Assembly (NCBI GenBank): GCA_026399415.1
Contig: JAPLQZ010000012.1
Span: forward strand, 1 to 32,805
Direction: 5' to 3'
From: Rhodocyclales bacterium
GTDB lineage: Bacteria > Pseudomonadota > Gammaproteobacteria > Burkholderiales > Rhodocyclaceae
DNA length: 32,805 nt
The translations under genes and the position numbers were made by a program. This document shows positions 20,295 through 31,208 of the stretch, piece by piece (positions within the stretch are counted from its first letter, which is position 1; the number at the start of each line of letters is the position of its first letter). The notes under the pieces were generated by a model. The model was not told the DNA's origin. It saw only the letters and a program-made list of their open reading frames with translations, and ran no database searches.

Positions 20295-20470
20295 GAGCGG
20301 GTCCTCGTCGGGTATGCCCGGCTGACAGGGCGGGTGAAGGGGTTTTAGAGTCCTGCCTCTAGAGGGCAAGTGGGCTGGCGTGTTCGGATTATACTGATCC
20401 GGAAAGGGTGCCCGGGCCTGCTGGAGCCAGCAGCTTGGCGGCACAAGGCAGCGTTCCGACAGGGGAGTGC

Positions 20471-22033
20471 ATGAGCGGGAAACATAGCAGGGATTCCGGG
20501 ATCGAAACCCTTAGCGGTGTCGATGGCGCTTTTCTCAATCTCGAAACCGCGGCGACGCCGATGCATGTCGGCTCGCTGCATCTGTTCGAGGTGCCGGCAG
20601 GCTACCAGGGCAACTTCTTTGCCGCCGTCAGGCACATGATGGAGAGCCGCATGGTGCCGGTGCTGCGTCGCCGTCTGGCGACCCTGCCGCTGCAACTGGC
20701 GAATCCGGTCTGGCTGCAGGGCGAGATCGATCTTGACCATCACGTCCGCCGCGTGCGCATCCCCAAGCCGGGCACCTGGGCGCAGCTGGAGGCCGTGGTG
20801 GCCGACCTGCATGCCGAGTTGCTCGACCGTTCGCGTCCGCTGTGGATGCTGTATGTACTGGAGGGCCTCGCCAGCGGCGAGAAGGCCTACTATTTCAAGA
20901 TCCATCACGCCATGCTCGACGGCCAGGCCGGCGTGGCGCTGGCCGGCGCGCTGTTCGATACCTCGTCCGATGTCGTGCCGGCGCGGAAGCGCAAGGCGCA
21001 GCCGGTCGCATCCGGCACAAAACCGGCCGCAGGCAAACCGGGAACACCGGCGTTGATCGCGGCCGCTTTCCGTCACGACGCTGCGCAATACATCAAGCTG
21101 GTGCGCGAACTGCCGGGCGTGGTGCGAACGTTGGCGGGCATCGTCAGGAGTTCCGCCGGCCGGGCGCGCGGCAAGGCGGGGACGGAGCAGGCGGCTGATC
21201 TTGGCCAGCTGCGCCGCAGCGTCTCCTTTGGTCCACGCACCGCATTCAACGTGACGATCACCCCCGAGCGCGGTTTTGCCACGGCCGCGGTGCCGCGCGA
21301 CGAGCTGAAGGCGATTGCCGCCGCCAACGAGGCGACCGTCAATGACGTTGTCCTCGCCCTGTGCAGCGGCGCCCTGCGCCGCTACCTGCAGCGCAGCGGA
21401 CCGATGCCGCGCAAGTCGCTGATTGCCTCGATGCCGATCTCGCTGCGTGAGCAGGGCAACACCGAGATGCGCACCCAGGCCACGCTGAGCCTGGTCAGCC
21501 TGGCGACCAACGTGGCCGACCCGGTCAAGCGCCTGCGGGCCATTCGCGACTCGGCCGGCGCCACCAAGGCGGTGGCGCGCAGCGCCAAATCGGTGATACC
21601 GACCGATTTCCCGCTGATCGGCGTGCCCTGGATACTCGGCGCACTGGCCGCGCTGTATGGCCGCAGCCGCGTCGTCGATACGCTGCCGGTGCTGGCCAAC
21701 GTGCTGGTGTCCAACGTGCCCGGTCCCCCGGTGTCGCTGTATGTCGATGGGCTGCGCATGAGCGGCTACTGGCCGTTGTCGATCGTCGAACATGGCGTCG
21801 GCCTCAACATCACGCTGATGAGCTATGCCGGCAGGCTGTGCCTCGGCTTCGTCGTCGCGCGTTGCGCGGTGCCCGACGCGCGGCAACTGGCCGACGATTT
21901 CCTCGATGCCTTCGAGGAATTGAAGCAGCGCATGCAGAAGCCCGCAAGAGCACCGCGCCAGGCCGCAGCGGCGCAGCCGGCGGCAGCCCGCGCCAGGCCC
22001 CGGCGTCCACGCGCAGCCGCGACCGCGAAATGA
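20471..22033 (+). CDS. WS/DGAT-family wax ester synthase/diacylglycerol acyltransferase, copy 1
   Basis: LSGVDGAFLNLETAATPMHVGSLHLFE, RPLWMLYVLEGL, active-site HHAMLDG, ATVNDVVLALCSGALRRYL, SNVPGPPVSLYVDG; basic Ala/Arg/Pro tail. Confidence 0.93.
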   Translation: MSGKHSRDSGIETLSGVDGAFLNLETAATPMHVGSLHLFEVPAGYQGNFFAAVRHMMESRMVPVLRRRLATLPLQLANPVWLQGEIDLDHHVRRVRIPKPGTWAQLEAVVADLHAELLDRSRPLWMLYVLEGLASGEKAYYFKIHHAMLDGQAGVALAGALFDTSSDVVPARKRKAQPVASGTKPAAGKPGTPALIAAAFRHDAAQYIKLVRELPGVVRTLAGIVRSSAGRARGKAGTEQAADLGQLRRSVSFGPRTAFNVTITPERGFATAAVPRDELKAIAAANEATVNDVVLALCSGALRRYLQRSGPMPRKSLIASMPISLREQGNTEMRTQATLSLVSLATNVADPVKRLRAIRDSAGATKAVARSAKSVIPTDFPLIGVPWILGALAALYGRSRVVDTLPVLANVLVSNVPGPPVSLYVDGLRMSGYWPLSIVEHGVGLNITLMSYAGRLCLGFVVARCAVPDARQLADDFLDAFEELKQRMQKPARAPRQAAAAQPAAARARPRRPRAAATAK

Positions 22034-22912: not shown

Positions 22913-24448
22913 ATGCGACAACTCAGCGAACACGATGCCGCTTATATCTATTCGGACAGCGCCCACGCCAACTCCAACGTCACACTGCTGCATATCTACG
23001 ACCAGTCCACCGCGACCGGCGGCATGGTGCGCTTCAAGCAGATCCGTGCGCATGTCGAGAGCCGGCTTGGCCAGTTGCCGATCTTTCGCCAGAAGATCCT
23101 GCGTGTGCCGCTGGATCTCGACTACCCGTACTGGATCGAGGACGAGAACTTCGACATCGAATATCACGTTCGCCACATCGCCCTGCCCAAGCCCGGCGAC
23201 TGGCGCCAGTTCTGCATCCAGGCCTCGCGCATCCACGCGCGCCCGCTCGACCTGCAGCGTCCGCTGTGGGAAATGTATGTGATCGAAGGGCTGGACAGTT
23301 TTCTCGACCTGCCGCTGGGCAGTTTCGCCGTGTTGCTGAAAATCCATCATGCCGCGATCGACGTTGCCCGCAACAACGAAATCACCACCCTGCTGCACGA
23401 CATCTCGCCCGATTCGCCGCCGCCGGCGCCGCCCGCGCCCTGGTTTCCCGAGTCGGCGCCGGGAAGTTTCGGCCTGCTCTGTCGCGCCGGTCTGAATTTG
23501 GCCACCTTTCCGCTGCGCATGGCGCAGCCGGTGCGCCGCAGTTGGACAACGCTGAAGTCGGCGGCAAAAACCCTGGTCGGCGAATTTCTCGGGGAGCCGC
23601 ACGAATTTCCCATGACGCGCTTCAACAGCGAAGTGTCGCCGCACCGCGTGTTCGAGACGCGCCGTTTTGCGCTGAAGGATTTCAAGGCCATTCGCGGCCT
23701 GGTCGATGGGGCGACGGTCAATGACGTGGTGCTCGCGGTTTGTGCCGGTGGCTTGCGGCGCTACCTCGACATGCAGGGTGAGTTGCCCGAGGAGAGCCTG
23801 GTCGCGGCGACGCCGGTGGGCGTGCGCGCAATGCGTGACAAAGCGGGCGAGGCGGTCGGGCAGGCGAAATTTGCCTGGGTGCGCGTCGGGCTCGGCACCG
23901 ATATTGCCGATCCGGTGCAACGGCTGGCCGCCATCCATGCCACCAGTTCGTCGTCGACCGTCATGGCGCAGGCCATCAGCGCACGCGAACTGATCGACCT
24001 CGCGGAACATGCCCCTTCCGCCGCGATTGCCGCCACCAGCAAAATGCTGCGCTCGGCCTCGGCCCTGCTTGGAGACTGGGCGCCGCTGGCCAACTGCGCC
24101 ATCACCAACGTGCCCGGACCGCAGGTGCCGCTCTATCTGCAGGGCGCCCGTCTGACTTACGTGTCGGCGATCATGCCGATTTCCGACGGCATGGGGCTGG
24201 TGTTTTCGGTGACCAGTTACAACGACATGATCGTTGTCTCATTCACTGCCTGCTACGAGCAGGTGCCCGATCCCGGCGTCTTCGCCCAGTGCCTGCGCGA
24301 CAGCTTTCAGCAATACCTGGCGCTGGTGCATCCCCCGGCAAGGCGCAAGCCGCGGCCACTGGCAGCGACGACAGCGCGCCGCAAGGTCGTTGCAGCAGCG
24401 CCGAAGGCGCCGCGACGCAAGGCCGCGGCCCGCGCGGCGGTGCATTGA
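22913..24448 (+). CDS. WS/DGAT-family acyltransferase, copy 2 (altered active-site motif)
   Basis: LSEHDAAYIYSDSAHANSNVTLLHIYD, RPLWEMYVIEGL, IHHAAIDV in place of HHxxxDG, ATVNDVVLAVCAGGLRRYL, NVPGPQVPLYLQGARL; basic tail. Confidence 0.9.
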   Translation: MRQLSEHDAAYIYSDSAHANSNVTLLHIYDQSTATGGMVRFKQIRAHVESRLGQLPIFRQKILRVPLDLDYPYWIEDENFDIEYHVRHIALPKPGDWRQFCIQASRIHARPLDLQRPLWEMYVIEGLDSFLDLPLGSFAVLLKIHHAAIDVARNNEITTLLHDISPDSPPPAPPAPWFPESAPGSFGLLCRAGLNLATFPLRMAQPVRRSWTTLKSAAKTLVGEFLGEPHEFPMTRFNSEVSPHRVFETRRFALKDFKAIRGLVDGATVNDVVLAVCAGGLRRYLDMQGELPEESLVAATPVGVRAMRDKAGEAVGQAKFAWVRVGLGTDIADPVQRLAAIHATSSSSTVMAQAISARELIDLAEHAPSAAIAATSKMLRSASALLGDWAPLANCAITNVPGPQVPLYLQGARLTYVSAIMPISDGMGLVFSVTSYNDMIVVSFTACYEQVPDPGVFAQCLRDSFQQYLALVHPPARRKPRPLAATTARRKVVAAAPKAPRRKAAARAAVH

Positions 24449-27784: not shown

Positions 27785-29671
27785 TCAATGCGCGACCGGA
27801 AGGATGCTGATCTGCCGGCCCTTCTTCAATTTGCCGATGACATGCATTTCGCATTGCTTGCAGTCGAAGCGCAGGGTGAGCTTTTCCTTGCCATTGACCA
27901 GCGTCATCGGGTCGGGCCGGATGCCTTTCACTTCTTTCGGGCAAAGGTTAAAGCTGTAGCGCAGGCAATGTTTGGTGATCATCAGCGAGACCTCGCCCTT
28001 TTCGGTATTGGTCTCGTAGGCGTCGGCGATCAGCGTCACGCCGTGCTTTTCGTAGAAGGCGCGGGCCGCGCTGTTGAGCACGTTGCCGAGGTAGGAGAGT
28101 TCGTTTTCCGGATAGGGTGCGGGCGGTTCCACCGCCACGGCGCGCGGCGGACGCACATAGGCGGCGGCACGCGCCGCCACCAGCGCGGCAACCGCGTCGC
28201 GGCGCAGGGCGTTGATCGAGGCAGCCGGCAGGAACCAGGGCTGCGAAAGTTTCTGCACGATTTCGGTCGCGGTGAAATCGGTGCCGCCAAGTTTGCCGAG
28301 TGCCTCGCCCAGCGCCACCATGGCCCGCTCGGCGTTCTGCGCCGGTTCCCTGGCGTGGGCCAGCGTCGCGCCTGCCGTGATGCCGTCTTCGTCGGTAATC
28401 TGCAGCGCAAAACCCTCCGGCGTTTCGCCGAATTGCATGCCGACGCGGATGCGTCGCGTGGCGGATTTCTTTTCCAGCGCGCGCTCGAATTCCTGATCGC
28501 GGTTGCGGTAGAGCGCTGTGCCGATGGCCAGATCGTCCGGCATCTGGTTGGGAAAAAGTCGCTGTCCGTCGGCGCGATTGATGCGCAGGCCGACCAGTTC
28601 GCGGTGGCTGTCGAAATAGCTCAGGCCATCGCCGTTGTGCAGCGGCGCGCTTGCCGCCACCTCGAACCAGTCAGGCCCGATGCGGCTGACGTCGCCGATC
28701 GCCTCGCCGGAAAATTTCGGCGTATCGAAGGCGCCGATGTCGACCTGGCGCTCATTGACGAAGTAGTCCGTGGCGCCGCGGTTGAAGGTCTTTTCCGGGC
28801 GCGGCGTGAAGGTGAAGCTGCAGCGCCCGGACGAGGCGCGGCCGTATTGCGGCGACTGCTCCAGAAATTCGTCGAGCAGCGTGCGGTAGTGTGCCGTGAT
28901 GTTCTTGACATAGGAAAGGTCCTTCAGCCGCCCCTCGATCTTGAACGAGCGGATGCCGGCCTCGATCAGGGCCTGCAGGTTGGCGCTCTGGTCGTTGTCC
29001 TTCATCGACAGCAGGTGCTTGTCGTGGGCGACGATGCGGCCGGCCTCGTCTTCCAGCGTATAGGGCAGGCGGCAGGCCTGCGAGCATTCGCCGCGATTGG
29101 CACTGCGCCCGGTGTGGGCGTGGCTGAGGTAGCACTGGCCGCTGTAGGCGACGCACAGCGCGCCATGCACGAAGAATTCCAGCGTCGCCGTCTCGCCAGC
29201 GCCGACTCTTAAACCGGCTGAAATCTTCGCGATCTCCTTCAGCGACAGTTCGCGCGCCAGCACGATCTGCGAGAAGCCAACATCCTGCAGGAAGCGCGCC
29301 TTCTCCAGCGTGCGGATGTCGGTCTGGGTGCTGGCATGCAACTGGATCGGCGGCAGGTCGAGTTGCAACAGACCCATGTCCTGCACGATCAGCGCATCGG
29401 CGCCGGCATCAAAAATCTGCCAGGCCAGTTGCCGTGCGCCTTCGAGTTCTTCGTCGCGCAGAATCGTATTGAGCGTGACGAAGACCCTGGCGCGATAGCG
29501 ATGGGCATGCGCCGCCAGGCGCTCGATGTCCGCCACGCTGTTGCCGGCACCGGCGCGCGCACCAAAGGCTGGCCCGCCGATGTACACGGCATCCGCGCCA
29601 TGCTTGATCGCCTCGATGCCGAAATCGGCATTCTTGGCGGGGGCGAGGAGTTCGAGGGAGGAAGGGGTCAT
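27785..29671 (-). CDS. rlhA: Peptidase U32 family protein, RlhA (YdcP)-like 23S rRNA hydroxylation protein
   Basis: MTPSSLELLAPAKNADFGIEAIKHGADAVYIGGPAFGARAGAGNSVADIERLA...ALIVQDMGLLQLDLPPIQLHASTQTDIRT; long C-terminal part ending with a CxxC-containing segment (CLRYSFNLCPKE...CKQCEMHV). Confidence 0.8.
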   Translation of the reverse strand: MTPSSLELLAPAKNADFGIEAIKHGADAVYIGGPAFGARAGAGNSVADIERLAAHAHRYRARVFVTLNTILRDEELEGARQLAWQIFDAGADALIVQDMGLLQLDLPPIQLHASTQTDIRTLEKARFLQDVGFSQIVLARELSLKEIAKISAGLRVGAGETATLEFFVHGALCVAYSGQCYLSHAHTGRSANRGECSQACRLPYTLEDEAGRIVAHDKHLLSMKDNDQSANLQALIEAGIRSFKIEGRLKDLSYVKNITAHYRTLLDEFLEQSPQYGRASSGRCSFTFTPRPEKTFNRGATDYFVNERQVDIGAFDTPKFSGEAIGDVSRIGPDWFEVAASAPLHNGDGLSYFDSHRELVGLRINRADGQRLFPNQMPDDLAIGTALYRNRDQEFERALEKKSATRRIRVGMQFGETPEGFALQITDEDGITAGATLAHAREPAQNAERAMVALGEALGKLGGTDFTATEIVQKLSQPWFLPAASINALRRDAVAALVAARAAAYVRPPRAVAVEPPAPYPENELSYLGNVLNSAARAFYEKHGVTLIADAYETNTEKGEVSLMITKHCLRYSFNLCPKEVKGIRPDPMTLVNGKEKLTLRFDCKQCEMHVIGKLKKGRQISILPVAH

Positions 29672-29783
29672 GGGGCCGGGATTCTACCGGAGCGGGGTAG
29701 GTGGTTTGCGTAGACGATGCGGTCGATGGCGCAGTTCAATGCCATCTGTGTTGAGCAGACACGCAACCAAGCATCTCACCGCC

Positions 29784-29815
29784 AAAAAAGAAAGCGACCC
29801 ACGGGGGCCGCTTTC
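29784..29815 (-). terminator. Rho-independent terminator
   Basis: Minus strand GAAAGCGGCCCCCGTGGGTCGCTTTC hairpin (one mismatch in the stem) followed by TTTTTT; downstream of the 29907-30857 minus gene. Confidence 0.8.
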
Positions 29816-29906
29816 CTGAACCGACTATGTAAGCTCGTCGCGCTCTACTCACGCCTGCGCGGAAAGGTTAGGCCGCGCGATGCTTGGCCCGGCCCGGCCG
29901 GGACCA

Positions 29907-30857
29907 TTAAGAACCTGGCCTGCACTCCGGTTGGCGAATCGTCTTGCCACTGAACATGCAGTTCTTCGACTTATTGGCGGCACACTGGCAGCTACATGTG
30001 ACCTCCGATGGACATGCGGATCCATAGTCTTTCCCGCTCTGAGTTCTATAGATGCAGTTCGCATTCGGCTTAATTCCATTGGCATCCCATGCGGTTTGGC
30101 ATGAGGGCGCGCTTGCCGCGCTGGAGTGCGTGGAAGTGGTAGTCGGCGGGGGAGCTATCTTGCCGAGGATATAGCAGGTTTTTCCAACCCCGGGAGCAGG
30201 GTCGTCAACCCCCGTATCCACCGGTGTGCTCACAGAAGGAGCTTTCACGAAGCCCTTAGGAAGACAGGTAAACCGGTCTTTGCCGGCAATGGGCGCAAAC
30301 TTGCCAGGCACGCCATACACTCCGCTCCAGTCGCCGACGGCATCGCACACCTTGCCGTCGCTCGCGCATACGACCGCTCCGCTGGGAACCGACGCTACCA
30401 ACTTGCCGGCAGCGGTTGCTACGGGCGCTGCGGACGGTGGGGGAGCTGCGGGCGGTGGCGGCGCTGCGGGCGGTGGGGGCGCTACGGGCGCTGCGGGCTG
30501 TGTCCCTCCACCTGAAGCCATCAGGTAGCAATCCTTGTCGCCGCCCGGCACAGGGTCGTCAACCCCCAAATCCTGCGGTGTACTGGCGGAGGGAAATTTC
30601 ACGAAACCCTTCGGAAGACAGCTGAAGTTTCCCGTGCCTTGTGCGGTGTTGAACTTGCTTCCCTTGCCATAAACCACATACCCAGTGGCACCGGCAGGAA
30701 CTTTGCATACCTTGCCGTTTCCCGCACAAAGCGTGAAGCCAGCGGGAACCGCATTCAGCGTCGCCGGGTTCCCCGGCCCATATGAGCCGGAGTGCGCTGC
30801 GGACACCAGTCCTAGACCTGCCAATGCACCAAAAATGAATTTACTCAACATTTTCAT
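29907..30857 (-). CDS. Secreted Cys-rich protein with two ~70-aa repeats, Pro-Ala linker and distinct C-terminal 8-Cys module; unknown function
   Basis: Signal peptide MKMLSKFIFGALAGLGLVSAAHSGS; repeats VPAGFTLCAGNGKVCK...FSCLPKGFVKFPSASTPQDLGVDDPVPGGDKDCYLM and VPSGAVVCASDGKVCD...FTCLPKGFVKAPSVSTPVDTGVDDPAPGVGKTCYIL. Confidence 0.85.
   Translation of the reverse strand: MKMLSKFIFGALAGLGLVSAAHSGSYGPGNPATLNAVPAGFTLCAGNGKVCKVPAGATGYVVYGKGSKFNTAQGTGNFSCLPKGFVKFPSASTPQDLGVDDPVPGGDKDCYLMASGGGTQPAAPVAPPPPAAPPPPAAPPPSAAPVATAAGKLVASVPSGAVVCASDGKVCDAVGDWSGVYGVPGKFAPIAGKDRFTCLPKGFVKAPSVSTPVDTGVDDPAPGVGKTCYILGKIAPPPTTTSTHSSAASAPSCQTAWDANGIKPNANCIYRTQSGKDYGSACPSEVTCSCQCAANKSKNCMFSGKTIRQPECRPGS
30427..30480 (-). 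repeat. 18-bp tandem repeat (3 units) encoding the APPPPA linker
   Basis: gctgcggacggtggggga / gctgcgggcggtggcggc / gctgcgggcggtgggggc on the + strand, inside the secreted-protein gene. Confidence 0.8.
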
Positions 30858-31208
30858 GATATCTCTCCTTGGGGAAGTCAGCCGATAAGCCAGCTCTATT
30901 TTGTGCCCCCCTGGAACAACCGGGCGACAGCGCTATCATATCGGCAAAACGCCCGATCAACACAGTCGGAATCCCGATGTCAACTGAGGCACTACCAAGC
31001 TCTTCCGACTGTCCCCGGCGGTCAGGCGATGGCAGTGATTCCGGAACAGATTGTCTAGCCCGCTGGGTTGGTATAAAGCTAGTAAAGTTGGCTTTTCGAT
31101 CGTCGGAAACCAACCATGGTCGATAGTTTGCGTTCGGCACTGCCGTATCGTTAACGTTCGGCGTTCTGACAAATCCACCGTCAGCAGTCGGGCAGGTATC
31201 ATTGGCAT

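Follow-up and report, generated by a model that had tools for sequence, protein, structure and literature searches.

Introduction

Carbohydrate-binding modules (CBMs) are usually laid out as a terminal module on a Ser-rich linker, and rhamnose-binding lectins of the SUEL type (SUEL/RBL) are best known from animals, their use in bacteria being unusual. In the latrophilin RBL, rhamnose is contacted through loop 2 (Gly117 and Lys120), together with Tyr63 and Glu42, and the corresponding PF02140 profile holds seven conserved cysteines, with an eighth required for folding (PMC2430599). Here we compare both kinds of system with a cysteine-rich protein encoded by an uncultured freshwater bacterium of the order Rhodocyclales, on a 32,805-nucleotide stretch of DNA that was analysed as a whole (the window). 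Judged from its sequence, this window protein has, in our estimate, about an even chance of being an exported, non-catalytic glycan-binding protein of CBM- or lectin-like character.

The gene, its product and its locus

The open reading frame is a real gene under protein-level selection. Two further genomes of the genus, both of them Lac Pavin Rhodocyclales metagenome-assembled genomes, encode orthologues with the full architecture (63–65% identical), and this architecture occurs in 3 of the 31 genomes of the genus; dN/dS between the window gene and its orthologues is 0.19–0.20, and all 16 cysteines are invariant across the three aligned proteins. Both orthologues came from an alignment-based scan of genome contigs; a single-protein scan had returned neither.

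The architecture (Table 1) is largely the one given in the original prediction, which had described an exported protein with a duplicated four-Cys domain, a Pro-Ala linker and a separate eight-Cys C-terminal module. Export is borne out by a putative classical Sec signal peptide, which reads as MKMLSKFIFGALAGLGLVSAAHS followed by GS (cleavage probably between AHS and GS, versus AQA and GP in the orthologues). The cysteines fall into even groups, as had been noted, at residues 44, 51, 80 and 110, at 164, 171, 198 and 228, and at 253, 268, 282, 288, 290, 292, 300 and 312 (4+4+8). Duplication of the four-Cys domain is clear: 41 of 80 positions are identical between the repeats (51%, E = 2 × 10−25), and their alignment score of 210 lies far above the 30 ± 5.7 (maximum 51) of 1,000 shuffles, so the likeness is not due to chance. 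Two details of the earlier description needed correction, in that the first cysteine pair is spaced C-x6-C in both repeats, rather than C-x5-6-C, and the two units are not directly adjacent, a Pro/Ala linker of about 40 residues lying between them.

Table 1 Features of the window gene and its product (window positions)
Feature	Position	Strand	Basis
CDS, secreted modular protein, 316 aa	29907..30857	-	ORF, orthologues, dN/dS
Shine-Dalgarno AGGAGA, 6 nt upstream of ATG	30864..30869	-	Sequence
Predicted Sec signal peptide, residues 1-23, cleavage AHS/GS	30789..30857	-	Read from sequence; orthologue alignment
4-Cys domain copy 1, residues 34-112 (C44, C51, C80, C110; YG; DPVPGGDK)	30522..30758	-	Repeat/profile comparison
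Pro/Ala-rich linker, residues 113-151	30405..30521	-	Sequence; low pLDDT; length differs between orthologues
4-Cys domain copy 2, residues 153-232 (C164, C171, C198, C228; YG; DPAPGVGK)	30162..30401	-	Repeat/profile comparison; predicted all-beta, pLDDT 82.7
Second linker, Pro/Thr/Ser-rich, residues 233-249	30111..30161	-	Sequence; orthologue alignment
C-terminal 8-Cys module, residues 250-316 (C-x14-C-x13-C-x5-C-x-C-x-C-x7-C-x11-C)	29910..30110	-	Sequence alignment
Intrinsic terminator (13-bp stem, 4-nt loop, T-run)	about 29783-29817	-	RNA folding

The gene had also been called monocistronic, with its own terminator and a lower GC content than its surroundings, and both statements stand. Beginning 90 nt beyond the stop codon, a hairpin and T-run form part of a 56-nt stretch that folds at −26.2 kcal/mol (z = −3.6), and an equivalent hairpin lies downstream of one of the orthologues (L030). 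An automatic consensus terminator scan did not pick up this element, in our opinion because extension of the stem uses up the T-run; given the hairpin, the T-run and the equivalent element in the orthologue, we retain the terminator despite that miss. GC content is 59.8% overall and 61.5% at third codon positions, versus 63–69% and 73–88%, respectively, in nine other genes of the window.

The immediate neighbours read like U32 peptidase, dihydrouridine-synthase-like and esterase genes, and reading of the window revealed no polysaccharide enzyme beside the gene. The orthologues, in genomes G025 and G028, are located at other sites with flanking contexts that differ from those of the window. Comparison of flanks across relatives delimited a spot that varies within the genus (window positions 29657–31197) between the U32-peptidase gene and a small lipoprotein-like gene: the same interval measures 0.2–0.25 kb in three relatives (L098, L099 and L100) and is filled by 1.35–4.8 kb of unrelated DNA in seven (L097 and L102–L107), so the window gene is one of several alternative cargoes. 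In the closest relative, whose flanks are about 90% identical, the spot (L097:2662-7025) is occupied by four genes, two of which resemble, on reading, BadF/HgdC-type ATPase activators and the other two HgdB/benzoyl-CoA-reductase-like subunits. A phage or plasmid origin of the window gene was considered and rejected, as the full protein had no match in phage and plasmid collections. Adjoining one orthologue (L003:1885-2349) is a gene for a small, exported-looking protein of GSFLGEDGKYHPQ repeats.

A domain family shared with secreted enzymes

No named family was recognized in the original prediction, and none was found here: the window protein and each of its parts matched no Pfam family, even at E = 10, the protein matched nothing in NCBIfam, and searches of PDB sequences with the full protein and with the repeat profile yielded no solved relative. 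The PDB sequence matches that did appear, for the full protein (CD6, a lytic polysaccharide monooxygenase (LPMO) and others, at E = 1.5 or worse) and for the repeat profile, were set aside as linker or chance similarity. The repeat is not isolated, however, as its description as undescribed-looking had implied. Sequence comparison identifies it as a long-loop form of a widespread domain of about 60 residues, CAxExxxC...VxYGxxxxF...C.N.FGDPxPGxxKxC, and profile–profile alignment of the window-type repeats with enzyme-borne copies of this domain gave a probability of 97.2 and an E value of 3.3 × 10−11 (hhalign). What survives of the claim to be undescribed is the want of a Pfam or NCBIfam name and a C-terminal module with no relatives beyond the two orthologues.

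A single profile retrieves both window-type and enzyme-borne groups. The repeat profile matched 8 of 200 genomes of the family, with up to eight copies per genome, and with a wider profile 12 of 399 Pseudomonadota genomes proved to carry the domain. The eight-copy maximum belongs to a genus of relatives within the Rhodocyclaceae (g35), in which nearly all copies sit at the N terminus of a pectin-degrading enzyme, with a Ser-rich linker after them. Fusions were found to polysaccharide lyases of families PL11 (PF21348), PL3 (PF03211, twice), PL1 (PF00544) and PL10 (PF09492) and to a PL9-like domain (PF22842); further partners include a subtilase, hemopexin repeats, DUF1996 and a metallophosphoesterase with Laminin_G_3, and proteins that read as parallel beta-helices carry up to three copies. 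Copies of the domain are also encoded on plasmids of Cupriavidus, Glaciecola, Eleftheria and Deinococcus. Enzyme-borne copies are typically terminal and joined across Ser-rich linkers. In IMG/VR, the long-loop repeat had no relative, and canonical domains were present on five contigs, apparently on bacterial-type exoenzymes; four contigs classed as viral (L078–L081), with the domain on exoenzyme-like proteins (parallel beta-helix, DUF1996), may be misclassified bacterial DNA.

Window repeats and canonical copies share the C-x6-C pair, VxYG, the third cysteine and the DPxPGxxK-x-C end, and in both cases the domain is a linker-separated module of an exported protein. The order of the four cysteines is likewise preserved in both window repeats, YG lying between the second and third and DPx5K ahead of the fourth (DPx5K is absent from some pectinase copies), and the canonical spacing of 26 residues between the second and third cysteines recurs in repeat 2. 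Two differences stand out. First, about 14 extra residues (CLPKGFVKxPSxSTPxDxGVDDP) separate the third cysteine from the DPxPGxxK loop in the window repeats, whereas canonical copies lack them; a protein of the window's own genus (L005) is without the long insert and bridges the two forms. The other concerns the Glu three residues after the first cysteine (CAxE) in most canonical copies, which is Asn in window repeat 1 and Asp in repeat 2; since this Glu is also displaced or absent in some pectinase copies, we do not count it as obligatory.

The window protein also differs from its enzyme-borne relatives in its partners. Where homologues carry the domain, CBM-like, as a discrete linker-joined module on PL1, PL3, PL9, PL10 and PL11 enzymes, no catalytic family was found in the window protein with Pfam or NCBIfam. 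A similar layout is seen in small secreted proteins from another Pseudomonadota family (L052–L054), which likewise consist of a signal peptide, a domain, a low-complexity linker and a second domain, with no enzyme, but whose domains are of the canonical short-loop form and which have no C-terminal 8-Cys module. A paralogue in the window genome itself (L002, G000:C290) likewise has a signal peptide and shares the long-loop repeat (66% identity over the N-terminal approximately 130 residues), but in a single copy; where the window protein continues with its second repeat and the 8-Cys module, the paralogue has two CFW/CYW modules and then a SUEL domain.

No Pfam or NCBIfam model covers any of the homologous domain copies that we checked, and a literature search for the FGDPxPG motif found nothing; the family may nonetheless have a name in CAZy, InterPro or AlphaFold DB. 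What is new here is thus an uncurated domain family and its long-loop variant, whereas the kind of system, a modular secreted binding protein, is already known.

Predicted fold and comparison with rhamnose-binding lectins

Modelling of a single repeat followed by a fold search, a check that the original prediction had proposed, was carried out on repeat 2. The AlphaFold model, built from an alignment of 12 domain sequences, is confident and all-beta (pLDDT 82.7, pTM 0.75), with the extra loop as its least certain part, and Foldseek gave no match to it below E = 2 in the PDB. Against a viral library (BFVD), the best matches were two Tupanvirus proteins (A0A6N1P2N1 and A0A6N1NXP6) and mimivirus L701, with a probability of 1.00, TM scores of 0.55–0.62 and 22–24% identity, but E values of 0.02–0.13; no other fold match of the repeat reached high probability. 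These results suggest that the four-Cys domain belongs to a fold family of which no member has been solved. A literature search on mimivirus L701 found nothing, and the giant-virus matches make gene exchange around amoebae a worthwhile question. A full-length AlphaFold model built from three sequences was set aside (pLDDT 44), its Foldseek matches being meaningless.

The paralogue L002 brings rhamnose-binding lectins into the comparison, as its C terminus matched PF02140 (E = 1.5 × 10−5, below the curated cut-off) and rhamnose-binding lectins in the PDB (E = 1.6 × 10−9 and 9 × 10−9). Between its 4-Cys repeat and the SUEL-lectin-like domain lie two modules of about 45 residues, ACFWMSNTPGNPW...GGGCYKW (L002:1462-2541). 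The canonical domain profile itself matched a SUEL lectin in the PDB (5h4s, E = 1.4 × 10−7), as the sum of three weak loop matches (NxVFGDPxxGxxK, an 18-residue loop) with a per-domain E of about 1 each. SUEL/RBL lectins such as CSL3 and the latrophilin-1 RBL have, like the window repeats, a YG and later a DPxPGxxK-type loop with the same spacing; this spacing is common to the window repeats (DPVPGGDK and DPAPGVGK), many canonical copies and the L002 SUEL domain (DPVFGCRK), and also matches loop 2 of the latrophilin RBL, going by published residue numbers (PMC2430599). Of the SUEL sugar contacts (Glu one residue after the first cysteine, Tyr of YG and Lys of DPxPGxxK), the Glu is absent from the window repeats, whereas YG and DPxPGxxK are present; because the folds differ, any equivalence of these residues is tentative.

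The likeness ends at the loop. PF02140 is among the Pfam families that the window protein failed to match at E = 10; SUEL/RBL domains have eight cysteines each and the window repeats four; and a four-stranded antiparallel sheet on a helix in the lectins stands against seven strands and no helix in the repeat model, for which Foldseek returned no RBL entry among the matches listed. Direct homology to SUEL lectins was accordingly rejected, the loop-only matches being weak and the predicted fold in disagreement, and because fold and cysteine number differ we keep the resemblance as a loop analogy, not as membership.

The C-terminal module

All eight cysteines of the C-terminal module are invariant in the orthologues, as are the long stretches AWDA-GIKPNANCIY and CSCQCAANKSK. 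Among the genomes searched, the module occurs in three only (the window genome and the two orthologue genomes); apparent matches in 12 other Pseudomonadota genomes were attributed to chance (18–25 bits, several across in-frame stops). By eye the module recalls Kazal-type inhibitors, but no Pfam match appeared even at E = 10 and the likeness was discarded.

Possible function

The glycan-binding reading is favoured by the homologous domains carried as accessory modules by secreted polysaccharide lyases and other exoenzymes, by the paralogue that couples the repeat to a SUEL domain, by the loop spacing in common with rhamnose-binding lectins and by the small two-domain relatives that lack an enzyme. 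On this reading, the window protein would be exported by the Sec pathway, after which the signal peptide would be removed and disulfides formed. Each repeat would then present the DPxPGxxK loop beside the VxYG strand on a predicted all-beta scaffold held by two disulfides, with the loop binding a saccharide, the two copies providing avidity and the 14-residue longer loop reshaping the site relative to enzyme-borne versions. The mature protein would be released or displayed outside the cell (a gene for GspD, the type II secretin, is present in the genome above the cut-off, making a type II route across the outer membrane possible), where it could bind extracellular polysaccharide as an adhesin, matrix protein or substrate tether, without an enzyme. 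We go no further than an even chance because the Glu is lost and because a protease, too, carries the domain; the protease fusion also means that a ligand other than sugar is possible. Counting against the reading as well are the restriction of the lectin likeness to an 18-residue loop, the missing RBL helix in the repeat model and the lack, on reading of the window, of a neighbouring polysaccharide enzyme.

A broader proposal, which we hold tentatively and consider rather doubtful, is that the repeat represents a new CBM or lectin family of unsolved fold, common to pectinolytic and other bacteria and to amoeba giant viruses, of which the window protein would be a stand-alone representative with the long loop, a new 8-Cys module and no enzyme attached. 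The weight might instead lie on that module, as a small protease-inhibitor-like knot, for example, with the repeats as structural or protein–protein modules (disulfide-stabilized spacers). The invariance of its eight cysteines and long stretches would fit such a working part, as would the presence of the repeat family on a subtilase and not on polysaccharide enzymes alone, but the inhibitor likeness was by eye only, with no Pfam match, and such strict conservation of the YG and DPxPGxxK loops would not be expected of spacers; we consider this unlikely.

It is less probable still that the protein acts in trans, as a scaffold or targeting subunit bringing a separate secreted enzyme to the substrate of that enzyme. 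In relatives the domain is covalently part of enzymes, and a free copy could have split from its catalytic partner; against this, the gene forms a monocistronic unit closed by a terminator, its U32 peptidase, dihydrouridine-synthase-like and esterase neighbours offer no obvious partner, and the orthologue contexts differ. The patchy distribution (3 of the 31 genus genomes), the low GC3, the abundance of cysteine, the insertion at a spot that is empty in several relatives and the predicted fold matches in amoeba giant viruses would all suit a secreted antagonist, bacteriocin-like or directed at eukaryotes, that forms the cargo of a variable locus, but no toxin family was matched in Pfam or NCBIfam, no immunity gene is evident next door, and the related domains serve degradative enzymes as accessory modules, and we regard an antagonist as very improbable.

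With its occurrence on five pectin-lyase families and on subtilase, hemopexin and phosphoesterase proteins, and with its giant-virus matches, yet with neither a Pfam or NCBIfam model nor a detectable solved fold, the domain is a promising candidate for a new family of binding modules, and the repeat is compact and can be expressed singly, making its ligand directly testable. Should pectin or rhamnogalacturonan be bound, an additional targeting module for plant-polysaccharide degradation would have been found; the window protein shows that the module exists without an enzyme too, possibly in a freshwater adhesion or matrix protein.

Elsewhere in the window, two ORFs read like WS/DGAT-like acyltransferases (20408–22033 and 22913–24448) with an alpha/beta hydrolase between them, an arrangement that suggests wax-ester or triacylglycerol storage.
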